Below, piece by piece: positions 15,884 through 27,806 of a stretch of DNA of 64,000 nucleotides (the stretch's first letter is position 1; every line of letters starts with the position of its first letter). This DNA comes from Pelomonas cellulosilytica (GTDB taxonomy: Bacteria > Pseudomonadota > Gammaproteobacteria > Burkholderiales > Burkholderiaceae_C), in assembly GCF_021353265.1 (NCBI RefSeq), contig NZ_JAJTWU010000001.1, forward strand, positions 496,001 to 560,000, given 5' to 3'. The notes under the pieces are model-generated. The model searched no databases and was not told the DNA's origin. It worked only from the letters and a program-made list of their open reading frames with translations. The translations under genes were made by a program, and so were the position numbers.

Positions 15884-16675
15884 ATGCAAGTCGGACTGTT
15901 GATCATTGGCGACGAAATCCTGTCCGGCAAACGCAAGGATTCGCACCTCGCCAAATACATAGAGCTGCTGGGCGAGCGCGGCATGCAACTGGCCTGGGCG
16001 CAGTACCTGGGCGATGACCGCGAGTTGCTGACGGCCAAGCTGCGCGAGGCCTTCGCCAGCGGCGACCTGGTCGTCAGCTGCGGCGGCATCGGCGCCACGC
16101 CCGACGACCACACCCGCCAGGCCGCCGCCGCCGCGCTCGGCCGGCCGCTGGCACTGCATGCCGAGGCGCGCGAGCTGATCTGGCAACGCGTGCAGCAGAT
16201 GGCTGCCGACCAGGGCACGACGGCCGACCCCGACCACCCCGACACCCTTCGTCGTTTCGAGATGGGCGTTTTCCCCGAGGGCGCCGGCATCGTCCCGAAT
16301 CCGTACAACAAGATCCCCGGCTTCTTCGTCGGCGACGTGCATTTCGTGCCTGGTTTTCCGGTCATGGCCCATCCGATGATGGCCTGGGTGCTGGACCGCT
16401 ATCCGCAACTGCACCGTGAACGCGGCGTCGTCGAGCGGTCGTTCATCGTGCAGGGTGCCATGGAAGCGAGCCTGACGCCGCTGATGGAAGCGGTCGAGGC
16501 CGAGTTCGGCGGCATCAAGGTGTTCAGCCTGCCGAGCGTGGACCACCCCCAGTGGGGGCGCTGCATTGAGCTCGGCGTCAAGGGCGATGCCGCGCAAATG
16601 ACGCCGGCCTACGATGCGCTGAAACGGGGCGTGATCCAGTTTGGTGCCAACATAAGCACCGAGTTGGTGCGATAG
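15884..16675 (+). CDS. molybdopterin-binding/CinA N-terminal domain protein
   Basis: A 263-residue protein made of the MoCF-binding domain found at the N-terminus of CinA. GLLIIGDEILSGKRKD, SGDLVVSCGGIGATPDD and FVPGFPVMAHPM are the family marks. The C-terminal nicotinamide-nucleotide amidase domain of CinA is absent, so this is the stand-alone form. Some family members act on nucleotide pyrophosphates; the role here is not established. Its last codons contain the NtrC site of glnA. Confidence 0.8.
   Translation: MQVGLLIIGDEILSGKRKDSHLAKYIELLGERGMQLAWAQYLGDDRELLTAKLREAFASGDLVVSCGGIGATPDDHTRQAAAAALGRPLALHAEARELIWQRVQQMAADQGTTADPDHPDTLRRFEMGVFPEGAGIVPNPYNKIPGFFVGDVHFVPGFPVMAHPMMAWVLDRYPQLHRERGVVERSFIVQGAMEASLTPLMEAVEAEFGGIKVFSLPSVDHPQWGRCIELGVKGDAAQMTPAYDALKRGVIQFGANISTELVR
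16655..16671 (+). promoter_or_regulatory. NtrC-binding site upstream of glnA (predicted)
   Basis: AGCACCGAGTTGGTGCG matches the NtrC consensus TGCACC-N5-GGTGCA at all ten core positions. Its centre lies about 109 bases upstream of the predicted sigma-54 start point, a normal enhancer distance. It is buried in the final codons of the upstream coding region. Confidence 0.75.
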
Positions 16676-16744: not shown

Positions 16745-16761
16745 TTGGCATGCAACCTGCT
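16745..16761 (+). promoter_or_regulatory. sigma-54 promoter of glnA (predicted)
   Basis: TTGGCATGCAACCTGCT agrees with TTGGCACGNNNNTTGCW at 10 of 12 or more informative positions. GG (16747-16748) and GC (16759-16760) are spaced by exactly 10 bases. Transcription would start near 16772, 67 bases before the glnA ATG. Confidence 0.8.
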
Positions 16762-16838
16762 TTAATTTCCGCCGAGGTCGCGGGCGCTGTTGGCGCACGC
16801 GACAGCAACCACCCCCCTCGATCCGCTAGGAGCTATTG

Positions 16839-18254
16839 ATGGCCAAGACCGTCGCCGATGTGATGAACATGGTGAAGGAGAACGAAGTCAAGTTCGTCGA
16901 CTTCCGCTTCACCGATACCCGTGGCAAGGAGCAGCACGTCTCCGTGCCCGTGTCCGCTTTTGACGAAGACAAGTTCGCGTCGGGTCACGCCTTCGACGGT
17001 TCCTCGATCGCCGGCTGGAAGGGCATCGAAGCTTCGGACATGCTGCTCATGCCCGATCCGAACACGGCCAACATCGACCCGTTCTTCGAAGAGCCCACGC
17101 TGATCCTGTCGTGCGACGTCATCGACCCGACCGACGGCAAGGCCTATGAGCGCGATCCCCGCTCGCTGGCCAAGCGCGCCGAGGCCTACCTGAAGTCCTC
17201 GGGCCTTGGCGACACCGCCTACTTCGGTCCGGAACCCGAGTTCTTCGTGTTCGACAGCGTCCGCTGGGGCAACGAGATGTCCGGTTCGTTCTTCAAGATC
17301 GAGTCGGAAGAAGGCGCCTGGAACAGCGCCAAGGAATACGAACACGGCAACAGCGGCTACCGTCCCACCGTCAAGGGTGGCTACTTCCCCGTGCCCCCGG
17401 TCGACAGCGGCCAGGACATGCGTTCGGAGATGTGCCTGATCCTCGAGCAGATGGGCATCCCCGTCGAAGTCCATCACCACGAGGTGGCCAACGCGGGTCA
17501 AATGGAAATCGGCACCAAGTTCAGCTCGCTGGTTGAGCGCGCTGACTGGCTGCAACTGCAGAAGTACATCATCGCGAACGTCGCCCATGCCTACGGCAAG
17601 ACCGCGACCTTCATGCCCAAGCCCCTGGTCGGCGACAACGGCTCCGGCATGCACGTGCACCAGTCGGTCTGGAAGGACGGCAAGAACCTGTTCGCCGGCG
17701 ACGGTTATGCAGGCCTGTCCGACTTCGCGCTGTACTACATCGGCGGCATCATCAAGCACGCCCGTGCGCTGAACGCGATCACCAACCCCGGCACCAACAG
17801 CTACAAGCGCCTGGTGCCTGGCTTCGAAGCCCCGGTGAAGCTGGCCTACTCGGCCAAGAACCGCTCGGCCTCGATCCGCATTCCGTACGTCAGCAACCCG
17901 AAGGGCCGCCGCATCGAGGCGCGCTTCCCGGACCCGTCGGCCAACCCCTACCTGGCCTTCAGCGCGCTGCTGATGGCCGGCCTGGACGGCGTGGAGAACA
18001 AGATCCATCCGGGCGAAGCCGCCACGAAGGACCTGTACCACCTGCCGCCGGAAGAAGACGCGAAGATCCCGACCGTCTGCCACAGCCTGGATCAAGCGCT
18101 GGACTACCTGGACAAGGACCGGGCGTTCCTGACCAAGGGTGGCGTGTTCACCGACAGCTATATCGATGCCTACATCGAGCTGAAGATGCAGGAAGTGACG
18201 CGCTTCCGCATGGCCACGCACCCGGTCGAGTTCGACATGTACTACGCGCTGTGA
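16839..18254 (+). CDS. glnA: glutamine synthetase, type I
   Basis: A 471-residue enzyme making glutamine from glutamate, ammonium and ATP as a cytoplasmic dodecamer. Marks include FDGSSIAGW near residue 50, PEPEFF for metal ligands, the [19 protein letters not shown]/metal loop and NRSASIRIP. Tyr400 in [10 protein letters not shown] is the adenylylation site, so GlnE/PII control is expected. TAGGAG at 16827-16832 supports the ATG at 16839 over an adjacent TTG. Transcription probably depends on NtrC and sigma-54. A terminator follows, and ntrB and ntrC lie downstream. Confidence 0.97.
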
Positions 18255-18839: not shown

Positions 18840-18865
18840 CCGTCGGCATGGTGCCGACGCGTGCC

Positions 18866-19978
18866 ATGACTGACATCCCCCTGCTGCCGGCCGAATTCGC
18901 CGGTCTGGACCTGCTGGCGACGATGGTCGTCGTCGTCAGTGCCAGCGGCGAATGCCTGTTCGCCAACGCGTCCTTCGAGAACGTCATGCGGCTGTCACGC
19001 CGCACCGTCCAGAAGGCCCATCTGCCCGACTGGTTCGAGGACCCGGAGCGTCTGCTCGAGACGCTGGCCGGCGTGGCTGCCAACCAGTACTCCAGCAGCC
19101 GTTTCGACGCCGTGCTGCGGCGTGGCGCGTGGGCCCACGAGGAAGGCCTGCCGGTGCATGTCGTCGTGTCGCAGATGGACGCCGACGGAGAGGGCGCGCC
19201 ACGCGTGCTTGTCGAACTCATCGAAATCGCCCAGCTCGCGCGGCAGGACCGTGACGAGCGCAATCTGGACCAGGTGCAGGCTACCAAGGAGCTGACCCGC
19301 AACCTGGCTCACGAGATCAAGAACCCGCTGGGCGGCATCCGTGGCGCTGCACAGTTGCTGGCGCTTGAGCTGCAGGGCGGCCAGGTTGGCGAGGGCGGTG
19401 CCGAGCTGACCGAGTACACCGAGGTCATCGTCCACGAGGTCGACCGGCTGCAAAGCCTCGTCGATCGCCTGCTCGCGCCGCACCGCCGGGCGCAGGTGGT
19501 CGGCGACGTCAACATCCACGAGATCTGCGAGCGCGTGCGGTCGCTCGTGCTCATCGAGCATCCGCGCGGGCTGGACATCCTGCGCGACTACGACACCTCG
19601 TTGCCCGACTTCCGCGGCGACCGCGAGCAGCTGATCCAGATGGTGCTCAACATAGTGCAGAACGCGGCGCAGGTGTTGAGTTCGCGCATCGCTGCCGGTG
19701 ATGCGCAGATCGTGCTGCGCACGCGAGTGGCCCGACAGGTGACCATTGGCAAGCAGCGCTGGCGACTGGCACTGGAATTGCATGTCGAGGACAACGGTCC
19801 GGGCGTCCCTGCCGAGATCCGGGACCGCATCTTCTTTCCCCTGGTCTCAGGCAGGGAGGGCGGTTCGGGACTCGGCCTCACGCTCGCTCAGACGATCGCC
19901 CAGCAACACCAGGGCATGATCGATTGCGAGAGCGAACCGGGCCTGACGAATTTCAGAATCACGCTGCCGCTGCCCTAG
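18866..19978 (+). CDS. glnL: nitrogen regulation sensor histidine kinase NtrB
   Basis: A 370-residue cytoplasmic kinase. The N-terminal third is a PAS domain. The H-box LAHEIKNPLGGIRGAAQLL has the phosphoaccepting His149, QMVLNIVQNAAQ is the N-box, and DNGPGVP plus GGSGLGLTLAQTIAQQH are the ATP-binding G-boxes. There is no membrane segment, as expected for NtrB, which is governed by PII. I favour the ATG at 18866; another ATG 18 bases upstream is in frame. It phosphorylates the product of the next gene, 34 bases downstream. Confidence 0.93.
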   Translation: MTDIPLLPAEFAGLDLLATMVVVVSASGECLFANASFENVMRLSRRTVQKAHLPDWFEDPERLLETLAGVAANQYSSSRFDAVLRRGAWAHEEGLPVHVVVSQMDADGEGAPRVLVELIEIAQLARQDRDERNLDQVQATKELTRNLAHEIKNPLGGIRGAAQLLALELQGGQVGEGGAELTEYTEVIVHEVDRLQSLVDRLLAPHRRAQVVGDVNIHEICERVRSLVLIEHPRGLDILRDYDTSLPDFRGDREQLIQMVLNIVQNAAQVLSSRIAAGDAQIVLRTRVARQVTIGKQRWRLALELHVEDNGPGVPAEIRDRIFFPLVSGREGGSGLGLTLAQTIAQQHQGMIDCESEPGLTNFRITLPLP

Positions 19979-20012: not shown

Positions 20013-21479
20013 ATGAAATCCATCTGGGTTGTTGACGACGACCACTCGATCCGCTTCGTGCTCGAGAAGGCCCTGGCCCGCGAGGGGCTGCCGGTGCGCA
20101 GCTTCAGCAATGCGCGCGACATGCTCGCCGCACTCGACGACGACACCCCACAGGTGCTCGTCTCCGACATCCGCATGCCCGGCGGCTCGGGCCTCGAGCT
20201 GCTGGCCAAGGTCAAGGCGCGCCTGCCGGCGTTGCCCGTCATCATCATGACGGCCTACTCCGACCTCGACAGCGCCGTGTCGGCCTTCCAGGGCGGTGCC
20301 TTCGAATACCTGCCCAAGCCCTTCGACCTGCCGCGCGCCGTGGAACTCATCCGCCGTGCTCAGGAAGAAAGCCAGCGCGAGGCCGGAGAGCAGGAAGCCG
20401 CCGCGCAAGTGCCCGAGATGCTGGGTCAGGCGCCAGCGATGCAGGACGTCTTCCGCGCCATCGGCCGCCTGTCGCAGAGCAACGTCACCGTGCTCATCAC
20501 CGGTGAGAGCGGCTCGGGCAAGGAGCTCGTCGCCCGTGCGCTGCACAAGCACAGCCCGCGGGGCGAAGGCCCATTCGTTGCCATCAACACCGCCGCCATC
20601 CCGAAGGACCTGCTGGAGAGCGAGCTGTTCGGCCACGAGCGCGGCGCCTTCACCGGCGCCCAGGCCTCGCGGCGCGGCCGCTTCGAGCAGGCCGACGGCG
20701 GCACGCTGTTCCTCGACGAAATCGGCGACATGCCCTTCGAGCTGCAGACGCGGCTGCTGCGCGTGCTGTCCGACGGCCAGTTCTACCGTGTCGGCGGTCA
20801 CAGCCCGCTGCGCAGCAATGTTCGTGTCATCGCGGCCACCCACCAGAACCTCGAAGAGCGCGTTCGCCAGGGCGCGTTCCGCGAGGACTTGTTCCATCGC
20901 CTGAACGTCATCCGCCTGCGCCTGCCGCCCTTGCGCGAGCGCAAGGAAGACGTGCCTGCGCTGGCCCGCCACTTCCTGCAGCGCAGCGCAACCGAACTGG
21001 GCGTAGAGCCCAAGCGCCTGAGCGATGCCGCGCTGGTCGTGCTGACGAACTTCGAGTTCCCCGGCAACGTGCGTCAATTGGAGAACATCTGCCACTGGCT
21101 CAGCGTCATGGCGCCCAGCCAGGTGGTGGAGCCCAAGGACCTGCCGGATGAACTGCAGCCGGGCTATGTGGCCGCGCCCGCGCCACTGCAGCCGCTGGCA
21201 TCGCAGGGCGTGGCGGCCGCCCCGATCGCCGTGCCGGCCGCTCCCGCCAGCACCAGTAGCGGCGATGGCTGGCTGGCTGACATGGCGACCGACGCCCGCG
21301 CCCGCCTGCTGGCGGGTGAACCCGACGTGTGGGATGCGCTGACGAAGCGCTTCGAAGCCCAGCTCATCTTGACTGCGCTGGACATCACCCGTGGCCGTCG
21401 CATTGAGGCCGCGCAGAAGCTCGGCATCGGGCGGAACACGATTACGCGCAAGATCCAGGAGCTGGGGCTGGACGTCTGA
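20013..21479 (+). CDS. glnG: nitrogen regulation response regulator NtrC
   Basis: A 488-residue sigma-54 activator. The receiver domain has VVDDD at 6-10, phosphoacceptor Asp52 and Lys102. The AAA+ domain has Walker A GESGSGKE at 164-171 and GAFTGA at 211-216, the loop that touches sigma-54. The C-terminal Fis-type helix-turn-helix (EAAQKLGIGRNTITRKIQEL) binds sites such as those predicted at 16655-16671 and 27790-27806. An Ala/Pro-rich linker of about 40 residues precedes the DNA-binding part. Confidence 0.97.
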   Translation: MKSIWVVDDDHSIRFVLEKALAREGLPVRSFSNARDMLAALDDDTPQVLVSDIRMPGGSGLELLAKVKARLPALPVIIMTAYSDLDSAVSAFQGGAFEYLPKPFDLPRAVELIRRAQEESQREAGEQEAAAQVPEMLGQAPAMQDVFRAIGRLSQSNVTVLITGESGSGKELVARALHKHSPRGEGPFVAINTAAIPKDLLESELFGHERGAFTGAQASRRGRFEQADGGTLFLDEIGDMPFELQTRLLRVLSDGQFYRVGGHSPLRSNVRVIAATHQNLEERVRQGAFREDLFHRLNVIRLRLPPLRERKEDVPALARHFLQRSATELGVEPKRLSDAALVVLTNFEFPGNVRQLENICHWLSVMAPSQVVEPKDLPDELQPGYVAAPAPLQPLASQGVAAAPIAVPAAPASTSSGDGWLADMATDARARLLAGEPDVWDALTKRFEAQLILTALDITRGRRIEAAQKLGIGRNTITRKIQELGLDV

Positions 21480-22107: not shown

Positions 22108-23823
22108 TCATTGTCCGCTGACCCGCAGCCCCAGCAACACCACCGTCGCCAGGCCGAACACCACCGTCAGCCCCCGCCAGAACAGCAGCGGATGCCGCTG
22201 CTGCAGCGGCGTGCGGTCCCGCTTCAAGAACTCCGGCCCCGGCGCGTGCAGGTCATGCACGAACTCCGACAGCGCCTGCTGCCGCCGCGGCGGCTGCGGT
22301 CGCAGCGCCTTTCTGAGCACGCGGTCCAGCCACTCCGGCAGGTCGGGCCGGTGCGTGCGCAGCGGCACGTACTGCAGCTTGTGCAGATCGCGCTCGCCGC
22401 GCACCTGCGGCACCTGCAGGCCGTAGGGCAGGGCGCCGGTGAGCATCTGGTAGACGAGCACGGCGAGTGAGAACAGTTCGCTGAGCGGCGAGCCGCCGTC
22501 GCCAGTGAAGTACTCGGGAGCGGTGTATTGCAGCGTGCCGGCGAGCGCCAGGGGGCGGGCGTCGCCTTGGGCCTCGCTCAAGCCCGCGACATGGGCGGAT
22601 GCGAGGTCGATGAGGATCACCGTGCCCTGACGATCGATGATGAGGTTCTCGGGCCGCAGGTCCTGGTGCAGCATCTCCTTTCGGTGCAACGCCTGCAGAC
22701 CACGGCCGATCTGTTCGGCGATGCCGCGCACCTCGTCCAGCGCGGGTCGCGGATGGTCCACCATCCATTGCGCCAGTGTCTGGCCGTGGATGAACTCGAC
22801 AGCAGTGAACAAGTGCTCGCGCCGAGCTTCGGCCTGTGCCGCCTTGATGACATGCGGACTGTCCACGCGCCGGGCAACCCACTCCTCGGTGGCGAAACGG
22901 TCCAGCTCGCGGGGGTCGCCGGCCAGCTCCGCTGTGGGCAGCTTCAGGGCCCATTCGCGGCCCTGGGCATCGACGGCCAGCACGACCTGGCTGCGTGCCG
23001 TCTGCTGCAGCTCGCGCACGACGCGGTAGCCCTCGAAGGACTGCCGCGGCACCAGGCGCGGCGGCAGCTTCAGGCCGTCGCGGCTCAGCGGTGAGGTGAG
23101 AGCGTCGGGCAGCGACTCGATGCGCGCCAGCATGACCGTTGCGTTGTCCTCGCTGCCGCGCACCAGCGCTGCGGTCACCAGTGCCTCGGCCGCCGCTTGC
23201 AGGTCGTTGGCGTGCGCGGCGAGCGTCGCCTGCACGAGCGCTGCGTCCAGGCGTTCGTAGGCGCCGTCGGTTGCAAGCAGGTAGGTCTCGCCCACGTCGG
23301 CGGCCCAGCAGCTGTGGTCCACGTCCAGGTGCGGGCTGATGCCCAACGCCCGGCCAAGGTAGGTCTGGCCGTCCTGGCGCACGCGGTGGTCCTGGCTCAG
23401 CTGCTCCAGCGCGTTGGCATGCACGCGGTAGACGCGTGTGTCGCCGACGTGCAGCAGGTGCACCTCGCGGCCCTTGAAGACGAGGGCGCTGAACGTGCAG
23501 ACGTGCCCGCGGTCCTTGTCGAAGCGGCCGTCGCCGCGTTGGCTTTGCGCGTAGAGCCAGCCGTTGGTGGCGGCCAGCACGCACTGCGCGGCGCGGCGCA
23601 CCGTCCATGATTCGGACGTGCCGTAGTAGTCCTCCAGGAAGCCGCGCACCGCCGCCGCGCTGGCCACCTGGCTGACGATGCTGCTGCTGATGCCGTCGGC
23701 AATCGCCAGCGCGATGCCGCGCGAGCGGGCCTGGGCCTCGGTGGGCTGCGCGACGCCGTGGAAATCCTGGTTCAGCGTCTTGTGGCCGGCCTCCGAGTGC
23801 TGGCCGACCGACAGCTTGAGCAT
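22108..23823 (-). CDS. bifunctional PP2C phosphatase / Ser-Thr kinase, membrane-anchored
   Basis: A 571-residue protein. Residues 1-240 form a PP2C-type phosphatase (AIADGISSS at 41-49, VGDTRVY at 127, TDGAYE at 185, SEDNATV at 224). Residues 265-530 are kinase-like: Lys294 in WALKLP, HQDLRPEN at 386-393 with Asp388, and DLA at 406-408 where DFG is usual. The Gly-rich loop is not recognisable, so kinase activity is uncertain. One transmembrane helix ends the protein. It is cotranscribed with nirB, nirD and nirC, sharing a TGATG junction with nirC; control of nitrite uptake or reduction is inference. Confidence 0.85.
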   Translation of the reverse strand: MLKLSVGQHSEAGHKTLNQDFHGVAQPTEAQARSRGIALAIADGISSSIVSQVASAAAVRGFLEDYYGTSESWTVRRAAQCVLAATNGWLYAQSQRGDGRFDKDRGHVCTFSALVFKGREVHLLHVGDTRVYRVHANALEQLSQDHRVRQDGQTYLGRALGISPHLDVDHSCWAADVGETYLLATDGAYERLDAALVQATLAAHANDLQAAAEALVTAALVRGSEDNATVMLARIESLPDALTSPLSRDGLKLPPRLVPRQSFEGYRVVRELQQTARSQVVLAVDAQGREWALKLPTAELAGDPRELDRFATEEWVARRVDSPHVIKAAQAEARREHLFTAVEFIHGQTLAQWMVDHPRPALDEVRGIAEQIGRGLQALHRKEMLHQDLRPENLIIDRQGTVILIDLASAHVAGLSEAQGDARPLALAGTLQYTAPEYFTGDGGSPLSELFSLAVLVYQMLTGALPYGLQVPQVRGERDLHKLQYVPLRTHRPDLPEWLDRVLRKALRPQPPRRQQALSEFVHDLHAPGPEFLKRDRTPLQQRHPLLFWRGLTVVFGLATVVLLGLRVSGQ

Positions 23824-24635
23824 CAGCCCAGCACTCGCTTGGGGGCTGTCTTGTAGTGGGTCGAGTACAGCGACAAGCCCACGAATGTGAGTCCGCCCAC
23901 GAGGTTGCCGACCACCGTGGGAATCTCGTTCCAGATCAGGTAGTCCATCAGCGTGAACTGGCCGCCCAGCATCAGGCCCGACGGGAACAGGAACATGTTG
24001 ACGATGCTGTGCTCGAAGCCCATGTAGAAAAACACCATGATGGGCATCCACATGCCGATGGCCTTGCCCGAGACGGACGTGGACATCATGGCCGCGACGA
24101 CGCCGGTGGACACCATCCAGTTGCAAAGCACGCCGCGGATGAAGAGTGTCAGCATGCCGGCCGCGCCGTGGGCCGCGTAGCCCACCGTGCGGCCTTCGCC
24201 GATGTGGCCGATCTTCTGGCCGATGGCATTGGGCGCCTCGCTGAAGCCGAACGTGAAGATGATGGCCATGAAGACGGCGACGGTCAGCGCGCCGGCGAAG
24301 TTGCCGAAGAACACCAGCGTCCAGTTGCGCAGCACGCCGGCCCAGGTCGCGCCGGGGCGCTTGTCCAGCACAGCCAGCGGCACCAGCGTGAACACACCGG
24401 TCAGCAGGTCGAAGCCCATCAGGTACAGCAGGATGAAGCCGACCGGGAACAGCAACGCGCCGATCAGCGGGTTGCCGGTGTTGACGCTGACGGACACCGC
24501 GAACGCCGCGGCCAGCGCCAGGATGGCACCCGCCATGTAGGCGCGGATCAAGGTGTCGCGGGTGGACATCAGCAGCTTGGATTCACCCGCGTCGACCATC
24601 TTGGTGACGAACTCGGTGGGGACGACATAGGCCAT
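23823..24635 (-). CDS. nirC: formate/nitrite transporter family channel
   Basis: A 270-residue protein with six hydrophobic segments. FNT family marks are GNPLIGALLFPVGFILL, GNFAGALTVA and GVLCNWMVSTGV, followed by GFEHSIVNMF with the central pore His. It belongs to the FocA/NirC pentameric channels. Position between nirD and the phosphatase/kinase gene, 12 bases after nirD, argues for nitrite as substrate. Confidence 0.9.
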   Translation of the reverse strand: MAYVVPTEFVTKMVDAGESKLLMSTRDTLIRAYMAGAILALAAAFAVSVSVNTGNPLIGALLFPVGFILLYLMGFDLLTGVFTLVPLAVLDKRPGATWAGVLRNWTLVFFGNFAGALTVAVFMAIIFTFGFSEAPNAIGQKIGHIGEGRTVGYAAHGAAGMLTLFIRGVLCNWMVSTGVVAAMMSTSVSGKAIGMWMPIMVFFYMGFEHSIVNMFLFPSGLMLGGQFTLMDYLIWNEIPTVVGNLVGGLTFVGLSLYSTHYKTAPKRVLG

Positions 24636-24647
24636 GGTGGATTTCCT

Positions 24648-24980
24648 TCAGCAGTGGTTCAGGGCGACGAGGACATGGCCGTTTTCGACGCGGACGGCAT
24701 GCGCGTAGACAGACTGCTCGGGCGCCTCCAGGCACTCGCCGGTCGTGAGGTCGAAGTGGTTCTTGTAGAGCGGCGACGCGACGACGACGCGGTCGCCGAG
24801 GTTGCCCACCAGGCCGCGAGCCAGCACGCTGGCGCCGGAGCGTGGGTCGATGTTGTCGATGGCGTGGAAGCGGTCGGCGCCGATGCGGAACACGGCTACG
24901 TGGCGGCCGCCCACGCGGGCGGCCACGCCGGTGTCGGGCAGGATGTCGTCGACGCGGCAGACGGGAGTGAAGTTCATCAT
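24648..24980 (-). CDS. nirD: assimilatory nitrite reductase small subunit
   Basis: A 110-residue Rieske-fold protein. The positions that bind [2Fe-2S] in true Rieske proteins are not Cys/His here (IDNIDPRSG and YKNHFDLTTGEC), which is usual for NirD. It pairs with NirB in NADH-dependent reduction of nitrite to ammonium. Two adjacent ATG codons (24980 and 24977) are possible starts, with GGAG just upstream. It is 15 bases after nirB. Confidence 0.92.
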   Translation of the reverse strand: MMNFTPVCRVDDILPDTGVAARVGGRHVAVFRIGADRFHAIDNIDPRSGASVLARGLVGNLGDRVVVASPLYKNHFDLTTGECLEAPEQSVYAHAVRVENGHVLVALNHC

Positions 24981-24995: not shown

Positions 24996-27551
24996 TCAGG
25001 CGGTCGCTTCGGCACTGGCCTCGGCGGTCTGTTCGGCAGCGGCTTCTGCGCGCTCTTCGGGCCGCGCCGGACGGATCTGACCGCGCTCGGCGACAAAGAC
25101 GATGCGCTCGTCCGGCTGCTCGCTGTTGACGAAGGAGCGGAAGCGCTGGCGCACCGCGGGCGTCTCGACGGCCGTCTTCCATTCGCACTGGTAGCTGTCG
25201 ACGACCGCCTGCATCTGCGCCTCCAGCTCGCTGCCGAGGTTAAGCGAGTCGTTGACGATGACGTCCTTCAGGTAGTCGAGCCCGCCTTCCAGGTTGTCGC
25301 GCCAGGTGCTGGTGCGTTGAAGCCGGTCGGCCGTGCGCACATAGAACATCAGAAAGCGGTCGATGAGCTGGATCAGCCGCTCCTTGCTGAGGTCGCTGGC
25401 GATCAGCTCGGCATGGCGCGGCTTCATGCCGCCATTGCCGCAGACGTAGAGGTTCCAGCCCTTGTCGGTGGCGATGATGCCGACGTCTTTGCCCTGCGCC
25501 TCGGCGCATTCGCGGGTGCAGCCCGACACGCCGAACTTGATCTTGTGCGGCGCGCGCAGGCCTTTGTAGCGGTTCTCGATCTCGACGGCCAGGCCCACCG
25601 AATCGTCCACGCCATAACGGCACCATGTGCTGCCCACGCAGCTCTTCACCGTGCGTAGCGATTTGCCGTAGGCATGGCCGCTCTCGAAGCCGGCGGCGAT
25701 CAGCTCCTCCCAGATCAGCGGCAGCTGCTCGACGCGGGCGCCGAACATGTCGACGCGGGCGCCGCCGGTGATCTTCGTGTAGAGGCCGTACTTCTTTGCG
25801 ATCTGGCCGACGGCGATGAGGCCGTCGGGCGTGACCTCGCCCCCCGGCATGCGCGGGACGACGGAGTAGCTGCCGTCCTTCTGGATGTTGCCGAGGTAGT
25901 AGTCGTTGCTGTCCTGCAGCGGCGCCAGCTCGGGCTTCAGCACGAAGTCGTTCCAGCACGACGCGAAGATGCTGGCTGCTGCCGGCTTGCAGATGTCGCA
26001 GCCCAGGCCCGTGCCGTGCCGGGCCAGCAGCTCGCTGAAGGTCTTGATGCCGCCAACGCGGATCAGGTGGTACAGCTCCTGGCGCGAGTGCGGGAAGTGC
26101 TCGCAGAGATGGTTGTTGACGGCCATGCCGCGCTTGGCCATCTCCAGTTTCATGACCTGCGTGACCAGCGGCACGCAGCCGCCGCAGGTGGCGCCGGCCT
26201 TCGTGCAGGCCTTGATCTCGCCGATGGTCGTGCAGCCATCGCCCACCGCCGCGCAGACCTGGCCCTTGGTCACGTTGTTGCACGAGCACAGCTGCGCCGT
26301 GTCGGGCAGCGCATCCGGGCCGATGCCGACCTGCTTGCCGTCGCTGCTCGGCAGGATCAGGAACTCCGGCTCGGCCGGCAGCGCGATGCCATTGAGCGCG
26401 AGCTGCAGCAAGGTGCCGTACTCGCTCGCGTCGCCCACCAGCACCGCGCCGAGCAGCTTCTTGCCGTCGTCGCTGACGACGATCTTCTTGTAGACCTGCT
26501 TGCGCTCGTCCACGTACTGGTAGCTGCGGCACTTGGGCGTCTTGCCGTGCGCGTCGCCGATGCTGGCCACGTCCACGCCCATCAGCTTGAGCTTGGTGGA
26601 GAGGTCCGCGCCAGGGAACGTGGCTGCCGCATCGCCGGCGATGTGTCGTGCCGCCACGCGGGCCATCTCGTAGCCGGGGGCGACGAGGCCGAAGGTCTGC
26701 TCGTTCCAGCTCGCCACCTCGCCAATCGCGTAGACGTTGCGGTCGCTGGTGCGGCAGTGATCGTCGATGACAGCGCCGCCGCGCGGGCCTATGGCCAGCA
26801 CGCATTGCCGGGCCAGCTCGTCACGCGGGCGGATGCCGGCGGAGAACACCAGCATGTCGGTCTCCAGCCAGCTGCCGTCGGCGAACACGAGGCGGTGGCG
26901 GGCCATCGCGCCGTCGGTGATCTCCACCGTGTTGCGGCCGGTGTGCACGGTCACTCCCAGCGCCTCGATCTTCTCGCGCAGCACGCGGCCGCCGGTGTCG
27001 TCGATCTGCACGGCCATCAGCCGCGGCGCGAACTCCACGACATGCGTCTGCAGGCCCATGTCGCGCAGCGCCTTGGCGCATTCCAGCCCCAAGAGGCCGC
27101 CGCCGATGACGACGCCGCTCTTGCTGACCTTGCCGCTGGCCTGCATGCCTTCGAGGTCCTCGATAGTGCGGTAGACGTGGCAGTGCGTGCGGTCGCGGCC
27201 CGGAACCGACGGCATGAAGGGGTAGGAGCCGGTCGCCAGCACCAGCTTGTCGTAGTGCACGACCTCGCCGTCGGCCAGCGTCACGGTGTGGTCGCGGCGC
27301 TCGATAGCCACGGCTTTGGCGGCCAGGCGCAGCCTGAACGCCGGGTGCTTCTCGAAGAAGCCCGGTGGCACCAGCGACAAGTCCTCGGCCGTCTTGCCCG
27401 AGAAGAACTCCGACAGGTGGACGCGGTCGTACGCCGGGCGCGGCTCCTCGCACAGTACCGTCACCTGCACGCTCGTTGCGGCAGGCCCTTCGGCGAGAGA
27501 TTCGAGGAACTTCTGGCCCACCATTCCGTGGCCGATGAGGACGATGTGCAT
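24996..27551 (-). CDS. nirB: nitrite reductase [NAD(P)H] large subunit
   Basis: An 851-residue enzyme reducing nitrite to ammonium in the cytoplasm. The N-terminal FAD/NADH half has IGHGMVGQ and the GGGLLGLECA nucleotide-binding loop. A BFD-like [2Fe-2S] region follows, beginning at Cys422 (CSCNN) with CTKAGATCGGC. The siroheme/[4Fe-4S] site uses C638, C644, C678 and C682. The ATG at 27551 with AGGAAG upstream is the start; the open frame continues upstream without homology. First gene of the operon, under a sigma-54 promoter and a terminator-containing leader. Confidence 0.95.
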   Translation of the reverse strand: MHIVLIGHGMVGQKFLESLAEGPAATSVQVTVLCEEPRPAYDRVHLSEFFSGKTAEDLSLVPPGFFEKHPAFRLRLAAKAVAIERRDHTVTLADGEVVHYDKLVLATGSYPFMPSVPGRDRTHCHVYRTIEDLEGMQASGKVSKSGVVIGGGLLGLECAKALRDMGLQTHVVEFAPRLMAVQIDDTGGRVLREKIEALGVTVHTGRNTVEITDGAMARHRLVFADGSWLETDMLVFSAGIRPRDELARQCVLAIGPRGGAVIDDHCRTSDRNVYAIGEVASWNEQTFGLVAPGYEMARVAARHIAGDAAATFPGADLSTKLKLMGVDVASIGDAHGKTPKCRSYQYVDERKQVYKKIVVSDDGKKLLGAVLVGDASEYGTLLQLALNGIALPAEPEFLILPSSDGKQVGIGPDALPDTAQLCSCNNVTKGQVCAAVGDGCTTIGEIKACTKAGATCGGCVPLVTQVMKLEMAKRGMAVNNHLCEHFPHSRQELYHLIRVGGIKTFSELLARHGTGLGCDICKPAAASIFASCWNDFVLKPELAPLQDSNDYYLGNIQKDGSYSVVPRMPGGEVTPDGLIAVGQIAKKYGLYTKITGGARVDMFGARVEQLPLIWEELIAAGFESGHAYGKSLRTVKSCVGSTWCRYGVDDSVGLAVEIENRYKGLRAPHKIKFGVSGCTRECAEAQGKDVGIIATDKGWNLYVCGNGGMKPRHAELIASDLSKERLIQLIDRFLMFYVRTADRLQRTSTWRDNLEGGLDYLKDVIVNDSLNLGSELEAQMQAVVDSYQCEWKTAVETPAVRQRFRSFVNSEQPDERIVFVAERGQIRPARPEERAEAAAEQTAEASAEATA

Positions 27552-27610: not shown

Positions 27611-27653
27611 CAGTAAGAAGGCCCCGGGAACCTCTGCAGGTTCGGTCGGGGCC
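27611..27653 (-). terminator. terminator hairpin inside the nirB leader (attenuator)
   Basis: On the minus strand GGCCCCG (27653-27647) pairs with CGGGGCC (27626-27620). Inside it GAACCT (27643-27638) pairs with AGGTTC (27633-27628) around a GCAG loop. TTCTTACTGG follows. The hairpin lies between the predicted promoter and nirB, about 60 bases before the ATG, so it can only act on the operon's own leader. This implies conditional termination, as in ANTAR-controlled nitrate/nitrite assimilation operons. Confidence 0.65.
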
Positions 27654-27689
27654 GGTCAATGGGAGTCGCCGCCATTGGCGAGAAATCGG

Positions 27690-27708
27690 AGGGCTGTTGG
27701 TCAGCCCT
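27690..27708 (-). promoter_or_regulatory. 5'-proximal leader hairpin of nirB
   Basis: AGGGCTG and CAGCCCT form a perfect 7-pair stem with a 5-base loop, only a few bases after the predicted start of transcription. A second small hairpin (CGCC/GGCG, 27670-27680) lies between it and the attenuator. Together they are a candidate binding region for an antiterminator such as NasT. The loops do not match the ANTAR hexaloop rule clearly. Confidence 0.45.
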
Positions 27709-27721
27709 GCGTACCCGTTGT

Positions 27722-27738
27722 TGCAAGACGCATGCCTG
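27722..27738 (-). promoter_or_regulatory. sigma-54 promoter of the nirB operon (predicted)
   Basis: Read on the minus strand: CAGGCATGCGTCTTGCA. GG and GC are separated by 10 bases, the -12 part TTGCA is perfect, and GGCATG resembles the glnA element. The start point would be near 27711, giving a leader of about 160 bases before nirB. Confidence 0.7.
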
Positions 27739-27789
27739 GCTGCGTCCTCAGCGGCGCTCCTGCGGGGCGGCCGCTGGACGCTGATCGCA

Positions 27790-27806
27790 GGCACTGAGCT
27801 GGTGCG
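27790..27806 (-). promoter_or_regulatory. NtrC-binding site upstream of nirB (predicted)
   Basis: On the minus strand CGCACCAGCTCAGTGCC carries GCAC and GTGC half-sites with 7 bases between them, as in TGCACC-N5-GGTGCA. Its centre is about 87 bases upstream of the predicted start point, the same layout as for glnA. Confidence 0.6.

Follow-up and report, generated by a model that had tools for sequence, protein, structure and literature searches.

The described system closest to the locus considered here is NalA, the nirBD leader of Pseudomonas, and Romeo 2012 is said to have dealt with nirBD-PA1779-cobA. For NalA, passages of PMC12830290 describe a start that depends on sigma-54 and NtrC, with antitermination by NasT. 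As far as extracts of the relevant sources go, in vitro selection with NasR yields C:G-closed hexaloops with A at loop position 1 and G at position 4 (A1 and G4; PMC7496416), the minimal target of ANTAR binding is a single hexaloop, in which G4 receives the base-specific contact, both hexaloops must be contacted by EutV for termination to be prevented (PMC8934654), and in the eut leader induction fell when A1 or G4 was altered in either of the two loops (PMC3369931).

The DNA analysed here, 64,000 nucleotides of Pelomonas cellulosilytica referred to below as the window, holds a nirB operon for which a sequence-only reading had proposed double control, by nitrogen starvation at initiation and by nitrate or nitrite at elongation. 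The proposal has since gained support of a comparative kind, from conservation among relatives, from the genomic surroundings and from the precedent in Pseudomonas, and we regard it as probable that the operon is doubly controlled, by NtrC and sigma-54 at initiation and by an ANTAR protein through antitermination.

The nirB locus

The features of the operon, of its upstream region and of the neighbouring nitrogen-regulatory genes are collected in Table 1. The phosphatase/kinase fusion gene, the start of which was placed at an ATG that overlaps the stop codon of the preceding gene, is likely the final gene of the nirB operon. A second such fusion is found at another nitrate-assimilation locus of the same genome (L005 3917-5851, minus strand). 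The product of the ntrC-like gene is likely the regulator of the nirB promoter. Upstream of the presumed glnA, at a distance of 11 kb from the promoter of nirB, there is a separate GCAC-N7-GTGC (16656-16670) and a sigma-54-like site (16746-16761).

Table 1. Genes and predicted regulatory features of the nirB region, in window positions
Feature	Position	Strand	Remarks
NtrC-type site GCAC-N7-GTGC	27791..27805		starts 81 bases before the -12 GC; predicted from sequence
Sigma-54 (-24/-12) promoter AGGCATGCGTCTTGCA, GG-N10-GC	27722..27737	-	sequence motif
P1 hairpin AGGGCTG-ACCAA-CAGCCCT	27690..27708	-	7 pairs, 5-base loop
P2 hairpin TCGCC-AATGGC-GGCGA	27666..27681	-	5 pairs, hexaloop with A1 and G4, closing C:G
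Terminator-like hairpin	27620..27653	-	7+6 pairs, internal loop, loop GCAG, then TTCTTACT
Short T-rich tail TTCTTACTG	27611..27619	-
nirB, nitrite reductase large subunit	24996..27551	-	above NCBIfam cut-offs
nirD, small subunit	24648..24980	-	TIGR02378 above cut-off
Formate/nitrite transporter family-like gene (nirC-like)	23823..24635	-	TIGR00790, 148 bits, under cut-off 232.3
PP2C-type phosphatase/Ser-Thr kinase fusion	22108..23823	-	kinase and phosphatase models, all under cut-offs
Presumed glnA	16836..18254	+	named from translation
Presumed ntrB (glnL)-like sensor kinase	18848..19978	+	named from sequence
Presumed ntrC (glnG)-like sigma-54 activator	20013..21479	+	named from sequence

The NtrC-type site, the promoter, the 7-pair P1 and the 13-pair terminator-like hairpin, all pointed out in the sequence-only reading, are present as it described them, on the minus strand, and from the position of the promoter transcription is predicted to start near 27711. 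Taken alone, neither initiation motif is rarer than chance: GCAC-N7-GTGC occurs three times in the 64 kb for 4.79 expected, and sigma-54-like sites with up to two mismatches eight times for 10.0 expected. It is their genus-wide conservation that lifts them above chance. Among 20 Roseateles/Pelomonas-like genomes, taken as the genus set, 15 have nirB, and every one of the 15 upstreams carries GCAC-N7-GTGC together with a GGCAY..TTGC promoter, the closest NtrC-type site preceding the -12 GC by 68-91 bases and, in one locus (L031), a second one doing so by 101. The sigma-54 promoter plus NtrC site before nirBD that marks the NalA type is, as sequence, found in all 15. Outside the genus a perfect NtrC-type site is present in 21 of 55 nirB upstreams.

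The leader that follows folds more stably than all of 200 shuffles (z -4.46). Its loops had been described from the sequence alone as fitting the ANTAR rule poorly, which holds for P1, the loop of which (ACCAA) is no A1/G4 hexaloop, and fails for P2, a hairpin that had been overlooked: its conserved hexaloop AATGGC, with A1 and G4 and standing before the terminator, fits the ANTAR target rule as given for EutV and NasR in extracts of PMC3369931 and PMC7496416. The P2 pattern matches once in the window and not at all in 100 shuffles. Because the loop of P1 has five bases, the leader falls outside a strict dual-hexaloop definition. Between the end of P2 and the beginning of the terminator stem lie 12 bases, without the overlap known from the eut leaders, and the T tail after the terminator-like hairpin is weak; both points count against a reading by termination and antitermination. 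The hairpin is absent from the list of a simple terminator scan, an absence thought due to its internal loop. A pairing of CAATGG with CCATTG across P2, considered as a switch, was rejected as peculiar to the window strain.

Conservation of the leader

As to whether the stems are kept in relatives, on which the sequence-only reading had in part been staked, P2 is present in 15/15 nirB leaders of the genus and the terminator, judged by reading the alignment, in 14/15, the exception being L031, while P1 varies. With L031 left out, 14 leaders remain in the genus alignment. There the pairs of P2 are invariant, which is neutral on pairing, while three pairs of the terminator show compensatory change, each on one occasion, in the window strain. 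By reading, P1 has a hexaloop with G1 and G4 in 8 of the 15 leaders (GCTGAA, GCTGAC, GCCGCA), that of L020 having a mismatch in its stem; the seven without a clear G4 hexaloop are the window, with its 5-base loop, and six others. In four leaders whose P1 is without a clear hexaloop (L021, L024, L026 and L029), P2 is followed by another small hairpin, the third, again with a hexaloop (CGC-AACGGC-GCG). A locus titled as a Methylotenera metagenome-assembled genome (L040, seemingly the same stretch as L030) carries a Roseateles-like nirB at 88% identity; the title is probably wrong, as the genome to which L030 belongs falls within the genus set.

A survey reaching beyond the genus drew on 110 nirB loci. 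L091, L103 and L114 were excluded for shortness or for N positions, and the remaining set comprised 95 unique and 83 non-redundant upstreams of 230 bases. A hexaloop of the pattern AA.G on at least five pairs occurs in 61 of the 83, as against a mean of 1.4 and a maximum of 5 in shuffles, and eleven other loop patterns occur in 0-10 of the same upstreams. The 22 that are without a 5-pair P2 count against the reading; four of them (L081, L083, L090, L112) have a nearby ANTAR match, and of 21 misses examined, five (L019, L072, L076, L080, L116) show a 4-pair version of the AA.G hairpin after the promoter. The two nirB loci of Delftia (L046, L047), in which a sigma-54 site precedes the start by 83-86 bases and a leader of P2 or ANTAR type is missing, constitute a natural control.

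Distinct leaders with P2 number 71, 15 from the genus and 56 from elsewhere, and 30 of the latter were hand-chosen as alignable. Position 4 of the P1 loop is G in all 30 of these chosen leaders, and position 1 is A in 23 and G in seven. Their alignment has 21 cells changed on both sides of a pair, all in P1, for 9.0 when shuffled (0/500 as high), and five covarying pairs for 3.8 when shuffled (77/500 as high); since P2 had been selected there by its loop and pairing, its own counts in this alignment are not independent.

The Rfam narK RNA

At the gathering threshold no Rfam family matches the window or the loci of 17 relatives. In a permissive scan the narK RNA, RF03032, aligns with the window leader end to end (1-72 of 72) at 13.9 bits, under its gathering score of 43.2, and with a Variovorax nirB leader in the same register at 18.4 bits. 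The RF03032 consensus runs from GGCaCAgcucUUGCU, which reads as a -24/-12 promoter, through a stem with the hexaloop AACGGC to CGAC-AAAGAC-GUCG, unpaired in the model, so that the model favours the letters of P2 without scoring its pairing. In the end-to-end alignments promoter block, P1 and P2 stand in the identical order in window and family.

Searched in 399 genomes of the order, RF03032 matches 45 at E ≤ 0.001, three of them above the cut-off, and none of 14 controls. A looser search across the genus (E up to 10) was unusable, with none above the cut-off and 13/14 controls also matched; its list includes, at 16.7 bits, the leader that precedes nirB in G121. Among the best 30 loci from the order a second hexaloop with A1 and G4 is present in 29, on at least four pairs in 26. 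In these loci P2 has 10 cells changed on both sides for 2.2 when shuffled (0/500 as high) and two covarying pairs for 1.2 (120/500), and with the first stem included there are 64 both-side cells for 20.0. Within the sequence fetched around the same 30 (at most 1.5 kb per side) a tblastn match to NasT is found in 22, an nrtA-like match in 26 and a narK-like match in five, the nrtA-like match following the element in 22.

RF03032 has, to our knowledge, no assigned mechanism. Given the covariation of P2, the ANTAR neighbours and the promoter-like consensus, it looks like a sigma-54 promoter joined to an ANTAR target, and we think it very likely that its 5' block acts as promoter DNA and the rest as the RNA target. 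A link between the narK RNA or Rfam motif and ANTAR proteins was not found in the literature searched and may nonetheless have been published.

Of two covariance models built from leaders of other genera, the one made from outgroup nirB leaders with the promoter omitted (R1) was too weak and mixed true with chance matches: in the window it finds P2 only (14 positions at 11.1 bits and E 4.7, outscored by several chance matches elsewhere in the window), and run on the whole genome it does not list the leader. The other (R2), made from 30 loci of RF03032 type from other genera with P2 paired, finds the window leader at 27736-27663 over its full length (1-78 of 78) with 21.2 bits and E about 8e-4, E-values here being rough and part of the score stemming from the promoter block. 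When R2 was run on 35 sources totalling 321,714 bases, 33 of which hold nirB, 18 of its 22 matches at E ≤ 0.01 were nirB leaders; the other four were the nrtA and narK leaders of the window's own genome and sites after the ANTAR genes of L078 and L086. That nrtA leader (L004 8569-8671, plus strand), between nasT and nrtA, has sigma-54 block, P1 and P2 (GGAC-AACGGC-GTCC) and at 38.9 bits is the strongest copy found in the genome; the narK leader (L005 2016-2086, plus strand) scores 22.6 bits. The narK leaders of six loci of the genus (L005, L128, L129, L133, L138, L143) have one hairpin, with a covarying stem and the loop AATGGT, directly after the sigma-54 site.

On the whole genome R2 ranks the nrtA leader first, followed by a match of 27.0 bits and two of about 20 bits that look like chance, no nitrate gene being seen downstream by eye; the nirB and narK leaders are not listed, with 150 of 4298 candidates scored. 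With chance matches of up to 27.0 bits in the genome, the 21.2 bits of the window leader convince together with its position, not alone. Across 369 genomes of the class R2 matches 55 at E ≤ 0.001, one or more of them falsely: for the window's own genome, with 12 candidates scored, it gave the 27.0-bit match only and missed the nrtA leader, so that the count of 55 includes false matches and misses true ones. Among the best 30 of these loci an A..G hexaloop on at least three pairs stands as P2 in all 30, a match to nrtA, narK, nirB or nasA is likewise found in all 30, and a NasT match in 20.

ANTAR proteins and nitrate sensing

A search of the genome for a NasT or NasR gene, suggested along with the sequence-only reading, brought out two ANTAR matches above the cut-off. 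One is a NasT-like protein, encoded directly before nrtABC; the other, encoded divergently from narK (L005 707-2020, minus strand), has ANTAR followed by a C-terminal PilJ match, a domain order reversed relative to NasR. A third match (C23), which at 24.7 bits stays under the cut-off, comes from a receiver-type protein whose tail is weakly ANTAR-like. Two ANTAR matches of more than 60 bits are present in 14 of the 15 genus genomes with nirB; the presence of nirB and a P1/P2 leader in G132, whose ANTAR match has only 27.5 bits in an assembly 95% complete, counts against the reading. Since ANTAR genes of more than 50 bits are also present in four of the five genus genomes that lack a nirB match, joint presence inside the genus weighs little as evidence.

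As reader of the leader we lean to NasT, with the PilJ-ANTAR protein a serious rival. That this fusion would act as a one-component nitrate receptor and read the leader in place of the NasT-like protein, a special case of double control, is a tentative but live possibility. Its P-box-like segments are AGAQRMLSQRL and VTRLRLLSQRL, the first with G-x-x-R, which passages of PMC8199190 give as the nitrate-binding motif of NarX/NarQ-type sensors; the AGAQRM box recurs in 12 of the 13 genus loci with PilJ-ANTAR and L118 has another G-x-x-R box. Suggestive too is the place of such genes: the narK from which the fusion gene diverges has a leader in which a sigma-54 site is followed by a hexaloop hairpin, and in L094 (956-3591, plus strand) two tandem PilJ-ANTAR paralogues, 45% identical, precede nirB by about 400 bases on the same strand. 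In the structure predicted for an L094 homologue the best, though weak, Foldseek match is NasR (4akk; probability 1.00, TM 0.43/0.49, E 0.046). Nor is a NasS seen beside nasT in the window's own genome: the adjoining NMT1_2 protein has an apparent export signal, for which reason it is rather NrtA than NasS, and of the seven NMT1_2 matches in the genome all three that were read show such a signal.

Against the fusion as reader stand the NasT-like gene, placed directly before the nrtA whose leader is the strongest element in the genome, and the situation outside the genus, where 17 of 22 ANTAR matches near RF03032-type leaders span at least 143 NasT residues and the ANTAR genes scanned near such leaders encode receiver-ANTAR proteins in 5/5 cases. 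Nitrate binding by the PilJ part is putative, and the predicted fold was modelled from two sequences, has a mean pLDDT of 69.5 and reaches no Foldseek match at E 0.001. Among the matches listed, judged by title or abstract opening, no ANTAR-PilJ fusion is apparent in the literature on ANTAR with PilJ, and for ANTAR with nirB the NirBD review alone was found.

Fusions of NIT with ANTAR were not seen in the 20 genus genomes, NIT and ANTAR matches lying at different places; in three scanned loci of other genera (L068, L086, L109) such a gene follows nirB. Four genus genomes (G030 C16, G125 C1, G126 C1 and G127 C3) have NIT matches at a distance of 17-28 kb from nirB, within long frames of 650-725 residues.

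On a wider and more speculative view, the nirB, nrtA and narK operons of Roseateles might form one regulon, each with a sigma-54 promoter and a hexaloop leader, read by the PilJ-ANTAR one-component nitrate receptor, its receptor part behind ANTAR, which would have replaced NasS-NasT or NasR, and the same element would explain RF03032.

Proposed control of nirB and its alternatives

In the double control that we favour, nitrogen limitation would lead phosphorylated NtrC to bind its site and activate sigma-54 polymerase at the -24/-12 promoter, and transcription from the predicted start would by default end at the terminator-like hairpin. On sensing of nitrate or nitrite, an ANTAR protein, whether NasT-like or fused to PilJ, would bind the hexaloop of P2, with P1 as a second target in relatives, and P2 so bound would keep the terminator inactive, allowing nirBD, the transporter gene and the kinase/phosphatase gene to be transcribed. 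Since P2 and the terminator do not overlap, the route from binding to antitermination is not explained by stem overlap. The window P1, without a hexaloop, counts against the scheme, as does the lack of a clear G4 hexaloop in seven of the 15 genus P1 hairpins, because EutV must contact both hexaloops and changes in either eut loop weaken induction; with P2 alone the window strain may switch more poorly than its relatives, or differently.

The last point is shared with a simpler account, in which NtrC alone regulates, at least in the window strain where the P1 hexaloop would have been lost, and the stems are a default terminator and an unrelated structural leader. Delftia nirB, with its sigma-54 site and no P2-type hairpin, illustrates that leaderless control exists. 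We nevertheless find this account improbable, in view of the letter-specific conservation of positions 1, 2 and 4 of the P2 loop, the ANTAR matches near leaders of the same build outside the genus and the architecture shared by nrtA and narK. That a non-ANTAR protein, or an RNA that senses its ligand directly, acts through P1 and the terminator, as the sequence-only reading had entertained from the misfit of the P1 and terminator loops, is very improbable, as it overlooks P2, which is the most conserved part of the leader and fits the ANTAR rule.

Comparison with known systems

What is seen at this locus amounts to a variant of an established type of control, by which the NtrC-plus-ANTAR double switch of nitrite assimilation would be extended to Burkholderiales. 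Its wider value lies in the link to RF03032, for which a testable meaning is offered, and in the PilJ-ANTAR candidate, possibly a nitrate receptor wired directly to RNA antitermination.

With RF03032 the window shares the GGCAC..TTGC promoter block, P1 hairpin, linker and P2 hexaloop in the same order (in the family P1, too, is a hexaloop); it differs in scoring well short of the gathering threshold, in that the family model leaves P2 unpaired, and in the gene that follows, an nrtA-like match in 22 of the 30 family loci examined. The likeness to the Enterococcus eut leader, as extracts of PMC8934654 and PMC3369931 portray it, is the hexaloop as target of an ANTAR protein, EutV; there, however, neither hexaloop can be spared and P2 is located within the stem of the terminator, whereas in the window P1 is without a hexaloop and P2 stands apart from the terminator. 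The Klebsiella nasF leader, read by the NIT-ANTAR protein NasR, has, according to passages of PMC7496416, two hairpins, an A1/G4 hexaloop with C:G closing and nitrate-responsive antitermination, all of which resemble what is found or proposed here; the difference is that in the genus no NIT match coincides with an ANTAR match, NIT-ANTAR genes after nirB being seen in the three scanned loci of other genera. Closest, compared by description rather than by sequence, is NalA, with its sigma-54/NtrC start, its terminator leader before nirBD and its antitermination by NasT, from which the present locus differs in having no NasS seen beside nasT and in the presence of a second, PilJ-fused ANTAR protein.
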